Source of the DNA: Gallionella sp.
GTDB lineage: Bacteria; Pseudomonadota; Gammaproteobacteria; Burkholderiales; Gallionellaceae
Direction of reading: 5' to 3'
Length of the DNA stretch: 64,000 nt
Assembly: GCA_030652475.1 (NCBI GenBank)
Contig: JAUSAO010000116.1
Span: 1-64,000, forward strand
The notes under the pieces were generated by a model, which was not told the origin of the DNA, searched no databases, and saw nothing but the letters and a program-made list of their open reading frames with translations. Each line of letters starts with the position of its first letter. The first letter of the stretch is position 1. This document shows, in pieces, positions 26,784-42,272 of the stretch. A program made the translations under genes and the position numbers.

Positions 26784-29474
26784 CTACTGGCAGCCAAACT
26801 GGATAACCAAACCATCCAATGTCATATTTACAGCAATCGAGGTATGCGGGATCAACACATACCGCCATGCCTTGCCGCCATTCGTCAATGCGTAATCAGT
26901 AGCATTTTTGCACCATTTGATTGCAGCATCTCTTTTCGCTAAAACGATGACATCGCTCATTTGATTGCTGGCCTTGGGCTCCAGCATGTAGATGGCCTCT
27001 TTTGTCTCCGCCACAAAATCGGGTTGATACTCCAACGTCGCAGCACCCTGTTTGTAGAAAATCAGGAACTGTCCTTTGGCAGGCTTGAACCACTTCTCGG
27101 CATCACGATCCAGAATGACCGACAACACACGCTCAGCTTCCGAGTCAAACTTTTGCACCGGATACAAACAACGCTTGAAACCGCCGAACACATACTTCGC
27201 CATATTGCTCTTGTCCACTGGCGAGACATTGTAATCAGCCGTTGGCTCATTCACTGAATAGGTATAAGCACTGGGCTTGAATTCCGTATAGCCCTTGCTC
27301 ACCACCACTTCGTAATCAACCACGTCTTCCCAACTATGTTCCTGCATCTGAACATGAATGAAGTTGGCAATTTGCTTCTGATAGCAGCGCAAAACCTTCC
27401 CTGCCTCATCCTCAGTCAAATAACTACAAAAATGCTTCACGGTTTGCGCCGCCAGGTCATACAGCAGATCAGCCTGATCGTCGTAGGAAACATCATCGAA
27501 GTCCACCAAGCCACTGACGATGTAATCCTCCATGCGACTTTCTTCAATACCGCCATGCCCTAAAGTCACCAGCTCGCGCTCATTGGTGCGCAGCATCTGC
27601 ACCCACAACTCTTCTGACACCGCCGGATATTTCAGCGCATCAAGTTTCAGCGTGAACGGCTTGAATCCCGCCTTCACCGCACCTTTCGGCACCACCAGAA
27701 TCCGTGGAATATCTATCGTCTGTTGCACCAGCTCCACCGTCTTCGCTACCACCGCAGCAAAATCAGGTTGTTCGGTCACGCCCTCCAATTCCATCTGCGC
27801 AGGCCGGTGTTGTTCCTGCACCGCTTTAACGATAGCGGCTTGAACCTCCGGCTTGCTCAAATGCGCCAATGTCGGCACAAAGGTCGGCTGGTTCTCCATC
27901 TTGCGGATCACCTCGTAGGCAATCTGCGCCACCTTTTGTTCTTCCGGCTTGGTGAACACCGGCTGCACATCCTGCCCCGCCACCTTGGTACTGCCCGTCG
28001 TATCCGCTGGCTTGATTCCCAACTGGGTAGCAAGCTGCGTCTGCGAAACAATAGTCGCCGTCTTTTGCCCGAAGTCATCGTTATCCAACACCACCGTTTT
28101 CAAGTGGATGGCGGAATCAGGACGATTGGCCTCGTCGATGATCTCTTGGAATTTGTCGTGCGCAACGATGTTCAACCTATCCACCGCCGTCACGCCAGTA
28201 CGCTTGCCATACGGCAGACGCAAACCGCGCCCTATGGACTGCTCGATCAGAATGCGTGCATTCGCCGCACGCAATGGCACGATGGTGTAGAGGTTGGTCA
28301 CGTCCCAGCCTTCTTTCAGCATGTTGACGTGAATCACAATCTCGGTCGGCTCATCGGTGTGCTCCACCTTCAGCAGCCGGGCTATCATCTTCTCTTCTTC
28401 TGCCCCGCTCTGACTTGAATCAACTTGGATGACCTTGTCTTTGTAACGCCCCTCGAAGAAACCATCGGACTGGATCAACGCCAGCAAAGCTCCGGCATGC
28501 GTCGTATCACGTGCGATAACCAACACAAAAGGCTTAACGATCTTGTTATCGGTTTCGCGTGCATAGGTCTCCAGCTCCACCTTCACGCTTTCGTGCAGGC
28601 GCACACCGTCTTCCAGCTTCATACGCTCGATCTCTTCCGTCGACATCCCAGCCGGATTGAAATTCTTGCGCGTCACCACGGCAGGCTCTTTCACAAAGCC
28701 ATCTTCCATCGCCTTGCCCAACGGGTAATCGAGAATCACGTTCTTGAACTGAACCGCAGCGCCCTTCGCGCCTTCCACAAACGGCGTTGCCGTCAGCTCC
28801 AACCCCAAAATCGGCTTCAGTTCATTAATCGCCTTGATACCGGCACTTGCGCGATAACGGTGCGATTCATCCATCAGCAGCACCAAATCAGGCAACCCGG
28901 CCAAGTAATCAAAGTAACTTTCGCCAATATATTCGGACAGCCGTTTGATACGGGGAGACTTGCCGCCGCGAACCTCGGAATTGATCTTCGAGATGTTGAA
29001 AATATTGATTCGTACACCGCCGAACAGCGTGCCGCTGGCCGGGTCGTGCTGGTCATAGTTATCGCCGGTAATAATGGATGGCGCGTCAATGGCGAATTCC
29101 GAGATACCCTTAAACACATACTTCGGGTGCGTGCGGTCGCTGAAATCCGCGATCAGCTTGTTGTAGATTGTCAGGTTTGGTGCCAGCACAAAGAAATTGT
29201 TGATGCCGTGCGCCAAGTGCAGATAGCTGATGAATGCCCCCATCAAGCGCGTCTTACCCACCCCCGTTGCCAGTGCAAAACACAGGGACGGGAAATCCCG
29301 CTCGAAATCAGTCACCGATGGAAACTCGCTGCGAATGATCTCCAGCGCAGCAGCAACGTCAGCCCCTTTGCTCGGCGGAACAATTTCGGTGATGCGATCC
29401 AGAATCTCTAACGAGCGACGTTGCGGCGCACGCAAACTCAAGCGCCCGGCGATGGCGTTCACATGACGGTTCAT
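26784..29474 (-). CDS. res: Type III restriction endonuclease Res subunit (DEAD/SF2 helicase plus PDDEXK)
   Basis: LATGVGKTRLMGAFI, LLMDESHRYRA, ELTATPF, EQSIGRGLRLPYG, C-terminal PDFVAETKEAIYMLEPKA. Confidence 0.9.
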   Translation of the reverse strand: MNRHVNAIAGRLSLRAPQRRSLEILDRITEIVPPSKGADVAAALEIIRSEFPSVTDFERDFPSLCFALATGVGKTRLMGAFISYLHLAHGINNFFVLAPNLTIYNKLIADFSDRTHPKYVFKGISEFAIDAPSIITGDNYDQHDPASGTLFGGVRINIFNISKINSEVRGGKSPRIKRLSEYIGESYFDYLAGLPDLVLLMDESHRYRASAGIKAINELKPILGLELTATPFVEGAKGAAVQFKNVILDYPLGKAMEDGFVKEPAVVTRKNFNPAGMSTEEIERMKLEDGVRLHESVKVELETYARETDNKIVKPFVLVIARDTTHAGALLALIQSDGFFEGRYKDKVIQVDSSQSGAEEEKMIARLLKVEHTDEPTEIVIHVNMLKEGWDVTNLYTIVPLRAANARILIEQSIGRGLRLPYGKRTGVTAVDRLNIVAHDKFQEIIDEANRPDSAIHLKTVVLDNDDFGQKTATIVSQTQLATQLGIKPADTTGSTKVAGQDVQPVFTKPEEQKVAQIAYEVIRKMENQPTFVPTLAHLSKPEVQAAIVKAVQEQHRPAQMELEGVTEQPDFAAVVAKTVELVQQTIDIPRILVVPKGAVKAGFKPFTLKLDALKYPAVSEELWVQMLRTNERELVTLGHGGIEESRMEDYIVSGLVDFDDVSYDDQADLLYDLAAQTVKHFCSYLTEDEAGKVLRCYQKQIANFIHVQMQEHSWEDVVDYEVVVSKGYTEFKPSAYTYSVNEPTADYNVSPVDKSNMAKYVFGGFKRCLYPVQKFDSEAERVLSVILDRDAEKWFKPAKGQFLIFYKQGAATLEYQPDFVAETKEAIYMLEPKASNQMSDVIVLAKRDAAIKWCKNATDYALTNGGKAWRYVLIPHTSIAVNMTLDGLVIQFGCQ

Positions 29475-42100: not shown

Positions 42101-42272
42101 GCGGGTTGCTGGTGGCAAACAAAGCTGCATCAATCTGGTGGGGATTCAGATCAACCTGCGCATCCAGCAGCGCGCCAGCCATGCTATCCATAGAATCGGA
42201 TGCGGCTCGAAGCGTTAGCTGGTGTGCAAAATAAGCTGATTGGTGTGCGCTGTAGTGAGACGTGCTGGTCAT
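39189..42272 (-). CDS. SNF2/RapA-like SF2 helicase
   Basis: [76 protein letters not shown]. Confidence 0.92.
   Translation of the reverse strand: [1027 protein letters not shown]
40048..40125. repeat. GC-rich palindromic repeat inserted in frame within the SNF2 helicase gene
   Basis: AACCCCTCCCAGCCTCCCCTTGTCAGGGGAGG...CCCTCCCCCTGATAAGGGGGAGTTGGAGGGGGTT, encoding [27 protein letters not shown]. Confidence 0.8.

Follow-up and report, generated by a model that had tools for sequence, protein, structure and literature searches.

A probable helicase-associated type III restriction-modification locus of Gallionella sp. with two cargo slots and putative embedded defence modules

The DNA considered here (the window) is a stretch of 64,000 nucleotides from Gallionella sp. 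(GenBank assembly GCA_030652475.1, contig JAUSAO010000116.1). Positions 26784-42272 carry ten open reading frames (ORFs), all on the minus strand, and both their extents and their family assignments were confirmed by profile matches and ORF checks (Table 1). In transcription order they encode an SNF2-family helicase, a DinD-like protein, a DUF2130 protein, an AAA/OLD-like ATPase, a D12-class methyltransferase, Mod, a DUF1016 protein, a res'-mod' chimera, a RhuM family protein and Res. An earlier reading of the sequence (the original prediction) had described a composite single-strand defence island built around a type III restriction-modification (RM) core. This description held for the ten named families, for the two junction gaps above 100 bp (after the helicase and after DUF2130), for the housekeeping and regulatory genes on the flanks and for the reality of the chimera. 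It overlooked three features: the membership of SNF2 in the type III core, the recurrence of the neighbourhood as a scaffold with two slots for cargo genes, and the nature of the chimera as a recombination scar.

Table 1. Features of the island, in transcription order, with positions in the window
Feature	Position	Strand	Remarks
Inserted island between response-regulator gene and rnhB	26361..42395	.	Missing at same site in congeners G115 and G190
SNF2-family helicase, core gene 1	39189..42272	-	DrmD/RapA-like; Walker A GLGKT, DEAH
121-bp gap, beginning of slot A	39068..39188	-	Holds palindrome with 13-bp stem
DinD-like protein, slot A cargo	38174..39067	-	PADLOC PDC-S13
DUF2130 protein, slot A cargo	36897..38177	-	11 occurrences in slot A, none in slot B
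AAA/OLD-like ATPase, slot A cargo	35037..36773	-	TOPRIM-like C-terminal motif
D12-class adenine methyltransferase, slot A cargo	34159..35034	-	PD-Lambda-5_B-like; partner of ATPase
Mod, type III beta-class DNA methyltransferase, core gene 2	32348..34135	-	DPPY, FAGSG
DUF1016/YhcG PD-(D/E)XK protein, slot B cargo	31104..32351	-	PDC-S02; ATGA overlaps with mod stop and next start
res'-mod' chimera, recombination scar	30517..31107	-	30 codons of res 5' end in frame with mod 3' part
Chimera fusion point	31018..31023	-	5-bp microhomology ACCGA
RhuM family protein, slot B cargo	29471..30520	-	PDC-S05
Res, type III restriction helicase-nuclease, core gene 3	26784..29474	-	GVGKT, DESH, PDx(n)ExK

The junctions between the ten genes are, in transcription order, a gap of 121 bp, an overlap of 4 bp, gaps of 123, 2 and 23 bp, and then four overlaps of 4 bp, so that five of the nine are 4-bp overlaps. 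This count takes the DUF1016 gene to start at 32351, where an ATG overlaps the mod stop codon as ATGA; the longer ORF given from 32528 owes its extra length to a mechanical extension to a GTG. For the ATPase, the relatives point to 36728 (MSKTQL...) as the probable start, in place of the listed 36773. The island is flanked upstream by rnhB and downstream by genes for a tetratricopeptide repeat (TPR) response regulator and a histidine kinase. In the congeners G115 and G190, only approximately 120-200 bp separate the match to rnhB from the match to this regulator gene, and this empty site marks the island as an insertion of approximately 16 kb. No transfer RNA gene was found in the window, no integrase among the family matches of the ten genes, no RNA family in the region and no promoter signal above shuffled sequences. 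Palindromes of 27-53 bp (38840-38881, 39109-39138, 30264-30316 and 31999-32025) lie in or beside the coding sequences of DinD, RhuM and DUF1016. A search of the same genome for Mrr_cat returned no match.

The three core genes recur together. Related loci were sampled by Mod similarity (80 from named genomes and a further set of the same order; approximately 95 compared), and the frequencies given below therefore apply to close relatives. Among the 58 loci whose upstream sequence extends for at least 9 kb, 46 have SNF2 upstream of Mod on the same strand; Res lies downstream of Mod in 73 of 73 loci. This arrangement is beyond chance. The same scaffold is found in Escherichia coli, where SNF2-IetA-IetS-Mod-Res is present in 73 of 5,426 genomes and SNF2-Abi-AIPR-Mod-Res also occurs; E. 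coli loci with a more distant Mod have SNF2-Mod-Res with nothing between the genes. The scaffold is found on plasmids too. The window SNF2 protein is 42-45% identical to the E. coli SNF2 genes that adjoin Mod-Res. Mod matches PDLC03636 (1.3e-229), with its DPPY and FAGSG motifs at residues 75 and 348, and Res matches PDLC03648 (7.1e-213), with GVGKT at 71, DESH at 202 and PDFVAE...EPK at 818; catalytic motifs are likewise present in the SNF2, D12 and ATPase proteins. As a control, 13 regions around ordinary type III loci (Mod 33-43% identical) had no window-like SNF2 gene, and in none did DUF1016 or RhuM separate Mod from Res; the comparison is small and weak, as Mod was not recovered in three of the maps. 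The core as such is already known, a third gene 5' of mod having been described in type III systems by Murray et al. (2021; PMC8259958).

Further SNF2-Mod-Res loci were seen alongside these. The window's own genome has an apparent second one, split over two contigs (L111, G000:C7; L112, G000:C123); its slot A holds an SMC-like ATPase, its slot B a Zeta-like kinase. A third region of this genome (L160, G000:C94:37473-47750) has an SNF2 homologue (43%) followed by a 1,059-aa Mod-like protein and a 1,113-aa protein, and resembles a lineage with larger Mod proteins in Klebsiella plasmids and E. coli. In E. coli, the Mod beside SNF2-Abi-AIPR (L178:20887-22593) has DPPF and FGG motifs, as in type III Mods that form N4-methylcytosine (m4C), and yet, apart from the middle region, it shares 65-68% identity with the DPPY Mod of the window.

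Cargo genes occupy two intervals of this scaffold: one separates SNF2 from Mod (slot A), the other Mod from Res (slot B). In slot A, cargo is present in 60 of 64 loci; for slot B the figure is 54 of 84. ORFs of the relatives were called mechanically, and small ORFs within these counts may be spurious. In the window, slot A holds DinD, DUF2130 and the ATPase-D12 pair, and slot B holds DUF1016 and RhuM. Protein clusters keep to their slot: DUF1016 (20 in slot B, one in slot A), RhuM (10 and none), Zeta-like (10 and none) and Fic (five and none) belong to slot B, and DUF2130 (11 in slot A, none in slot B) and DinD (eight and none) to slot A. Of 196 occurrences, a single one lay in the slot less used by its cluster, whereas 2,000 shuffles of the labels gave 37 on average and never fewer than 26; one mixed toxin-antitoxin (nucleotidyltransferase-HEPN) cluster was left out of this count. 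Slot A of the relatives carries known defence systems, complete or partial, including Kiwa (KwaA, KwaB), IetAS, Dsr2-like SIR2, PtuA (Septu-like), OLD, HerA, AIPR/AbiU, GmrSD and PrrC-like AAA_13. Slot B cargo is typically a single gene, and its commonest junctions to Mod and Res are ATGA-type overlaps. On these counts, the cargo is variable and slot-specific around a conserved core. The ATPase-D12 pair, which is found again in L058, L063 and Acinetobacter baumannii, is a recurring putative sub-module; an AlphaFold model of the ATPase, built from a two-sequence alignment, was unusable (pLDDT 36). The locus L119 (G045:C43) has Mod-DUF1016-RhuM-Res with the cargo in the same order as in the window and no chimera between, and L047 retains remnants of a DUF1016-RhuM pair.

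The res'-mod' chimera lies within slot B. Over the first 90 bp it matches the 5' end of res at 93% identity; the remainder, from ACCGA onward, follows the 3' part of mod at 84-93% and in the correct frame. A microhomology of at least 5 bp at a random joint has a chance of approximately 0.005. The mod-derived tail holds an in-frame insertion, STPSLTPALSRGERE, which the window's own Mod lacks; among the Mods examined, this insertion (STPSLTPxLSRGERE) occurs outside the chimera only in that of L058, a metagenome-assembled genome of Gallionellaceae with the order ATPase-D12-Mod-RhuM-Res. L058 is collinear with the window on both sides, over AAA-D12-Mod 5' (3,028 bp at 88%) and over RhuM-Res (3,728 bp at 83%). 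No other res'-mod' fusion was found in 369 class-level genomes or among the related loci, and the chimera therefore looks like a private scar and not a component of the system. A search of the related loci with a degenerate junction pattern gave no match and also missed the window's own junction (L001), and hence provides no evidence. The second-copy mod tail of L111/L112 was rejected as a donor of the chimera, at only 84% identity, below L058. Short interspersed repeats (CCTTCGACAAGCTCAGGGCGAACG and similar) were also noted at 30646-30670, 30906-30926 and 32417-32441, where they are inserted into the C-terminal tails of Mod and the chimera without breaking the frame.

By these identities, the chimera is a leftover of a recombination event that helped to build the locus. 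An ancestor would have had the order ATPase-D12-Mod-RhuM-Res, as L058 has. On the simplest reading, such a locus then gained, by recombination with a second allele of its type, a segment bearing a different mod specificity region, DUF1016 and the start of res. The same event would have joined this res start to the old mod tail at the 5-bp microhomology. Two routes would lead to such an outcome: homologous recombination on one side combined with illegitimate recombination, or a tandem duplication with later exchange of cargo. In the latter case, the chimera would be the joint of a head-to-tail duplication of mod 3'-cargo-res 5', one copy of which later exchanged its cargo. A res start joined to a mod end is the novel joint expected from such a duplication, the microhomology suits it, and the 3'-most tails of the window Mod and the chimera share a further insert that L058 does not have. 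However, the two copies hold different cargo (DUF1016 and RhuM), and the upstream Mod lacks the insertion common to the chimera and L058, so that exchange with another allele would still be required. Tandem duplication is a possible but less likely history; it competes with the insertion history only and not with the reading of the locus as a scaffold.

Comparable scars are found in related loci. Truncated 5' ends of mod lie upstream of an intact Mod in slot A of approximately 10 distinct relatives (two loci in the list of fragments are the same contig). The L034 fragment shares 97% identity with the Mod protein of its own locus; after it come the 3' end of DUF2130 and IetAS, in that order. 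A mod 5'/DUF2130 3' joint of this type is also present in L036, at other coordinates. In L058, an in-frame ORF (4958-5380), read from its translation, apparently fuses the start of snf2 to the end of DUF2130, the latter 88% identical to the end of the window's DUF2130; the SNF2 gene of this locus may have been deleted, with the fused scar left behind. In their common form, the scars join the start of one gene to the end of another, with the next cargo behind. Such joints would be expected from homology-facilitated illegitimate recombination between alleles. In slot B of L119, what looks like a 5' fragment of res overlies the 3' end of DUF1016 and was rejected as a scar.

The placement of the cargo could also reflect a guard function, in which the RM complex would restrain the cargo effectors and anti-restriction proteins of phage would release them by inhibiting that complex. 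A precedent is PrrC, embedded in the type I locus EcoprrI (PMC12707154); PrrC-like AAA_13 proteins are found in slot A of related loci, and slot B cargo is often toxin-like (Zeta, Fic) and ATGA-coupled to its neighbours. Against this, the cargo is too diverse for one common sensing interface, and slot B is empty in 30 of 84 loci. As a general account, a guard function is unlikely; for some of the cargo, by analogy with PrrC in EcoprrI, such a role is possible. The guard model is a variant of the nested reading and is compatible with the explanation favoured below.

A different proposal is that the locus encodes one coupled machine, a new system in which the helicase, both methylases, the ATPase, the nuclease and Res all depend on one another. 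The single strand, the tight junctions with five 4-bp overlaps, and the presence of two methyltransferases and two superfamily 2 (SF2) motors with intact motifs would all suit it. However, the full set of ten families was found in no related locus other than the window, the ATPase-D12 pair occurs apart from it, and the tested cargo pairs do not co-occur significantly (Fisher p 0.09 to 0.71). The cargo families also turn over independently on trees of the core genes. On the Res tree (77 rows), the state of slot B changes at least 40 times, with 15 changes for 19 carriers of DUF1016, eight for 10 of RhuM and eight for nine of Zeta; on the SNF2 tree, the slot A families AIPR, IetA and DinD show eight changes for eight carriers, four for four and six for seven, respectively. 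These are minimum counts on FastTree trees with no shuffle comparison, and they come close to one change per carrier. By this measure, the cargo genes turn over nearly independently of the core genes, and the ten-gene combination of the window is one draw from a pool of cargo. A coupled machine is accordingly very improbable. The original prediction had allowed for either one coupled system or nested ones, and it is the nested alternative that stands. It had also counted independent assortment with no recurring neighbourhood against itself; the genes do assort independently, but the neighbourhood recurs strongly. A function of the chimera as a truncated Mod tail, for instance in the dominant regulation of Mod dimerisation or of Res, is scarcely credible: although its frame is open over 196 codons and it has an ATGA overlap at each end, it has no second example in the genomes and loci searched and looks private.

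The explanation that best accounts for these observations, and which is very probably correct, is that the locus is a helicase-associated type III RM core with two intergenic cargo slots, in which separate defence modules are embedded, and that it was built by recombination. Mod would methylate an asymmetric site, probably at adenine, and mark self DNA; Res with Mod would cut unmodified incoming DNA, and the SNF2 protein would serve as an accessory motor that assists them. The cargo probably acts as additional defence layers: the embedded proteins would be separate back-up or abortive layers, carried and co-expressed with the RM core, which would aid their retention. Some observations weigh against this explanation. 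In 12 of the 58 loci, no SNF2 gene lies within reach; either these loci can do without the helicase, or a long slot A may place it farther away. At its 3'-most part, the chimera is nearer to the window's own Mod than to L058, which points to gene conversion or tandem duplication and so to a history more complex than one insertion. The draft assembly comprises 146 contigs, with 4.9% estimated contamination; simple misassembly of the chimera is disfavoured because it differs by approximately 6-16% from every other copy found.

More tentatively, and with the balance tipping slightly against it, SNF2-Mod-Res loci in general may be two-slot capture platforms, in which the conserved ends of snf2, mod and res act as recombination anchors and leave truncated core-gene scars behind. 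If so, a single transfer could both alter methylation specificity and add a defence cassette, and defence islands could grow without a transposase. The readable scars, here and in relatives, mean that steps of cargo capture can be reconstructed, and they bear on the question of how defence genes end up within other defence systems. The strict slot rule also offers a simple route to further defence candidates, and, as the same scaffold with other cargo exists in E. coli, the predictions are testable there.

Several known systems share single components with the window. The SNF2 protein is most similar to DrmD models of DISARM, but its scores are below the curated cut-offs (706 against 950 bits, and 256 against 610), and the matches of the ten proteins include no DrmB- or DrmC-like gene and DrmA only as a weak cross-hit of SNF2; DISARM was therefore rejected. 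Hma, defined by the HmaA helicase, the HmaB methylase and the DUF499 ATPase HmaC, was also rejected, given a weak HmaA cross-hit of SNF2 (9e-51) and no DUF499 in the ten proteins. PD-lambda-5 is a compact RM plus abortive infection (Abi) system (PMC9519451); the D12 methylase matches its PD-Lambda-5_B model (2.9e-112), and the ATPase has no PD-Lambda-5_A match among the best 25 of its 118 matches listed.

The closest relatives are the type III systems with a third gene 5' of mod, reported from more than 500 genomes (Murray et al., 2021; PMC8259958). The third group of that study (Eco86II, BspHIV) has an extra SF2 helicase-like gene 5' of mod, and this helicase counterpart was reportedly not found in the Eco86II preparation and not needed for methylation. 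The window is alike in gene arrangement, with an SF2 helicase-like gene 5' of Mod-Res, and in the helicase being without PD-ExK (a pattern scan of the SNF2 protein gave no PD...ExK match). The Mods described there form m4C, whereas the window Mod, with its DPPY and FAGSG motifs, is predicted to form N6-methyladenine. Cargo slots are present in the window and are not mentioned in the accessible text of that study. Effector or toxin-antitoxin genes between the RM genes of one operon are also known from EcoprrI-PrrC (PMC12707154) and from the RptR-DarTG2-type I RM island (PMC12255303), but those are type I loci with one embedded module, whereas the window is type III with two slots and several modules. 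The PADLOC PDC candidates stem from a guilt-by-embedding study (a 2024 preprint, as cited in the accessible passages of PMC12255303 and PMC12988326), and the DUF1016, RhuM and DinD proteins, which correspond to three of them (Table 1), here lie inside the SNF2-Mod-Res core; slot specificity, capture scars and the fossil mod tail are unmentioned in those citing passages. No description of the slot rule or the capture scars was found in a literature search that left out preprints and most subscription papers. That defence genes can be embedded in RM systems, and in others, is thus already known, and the new part is the slot rule, the scars and the capture mechanism inferred from them.

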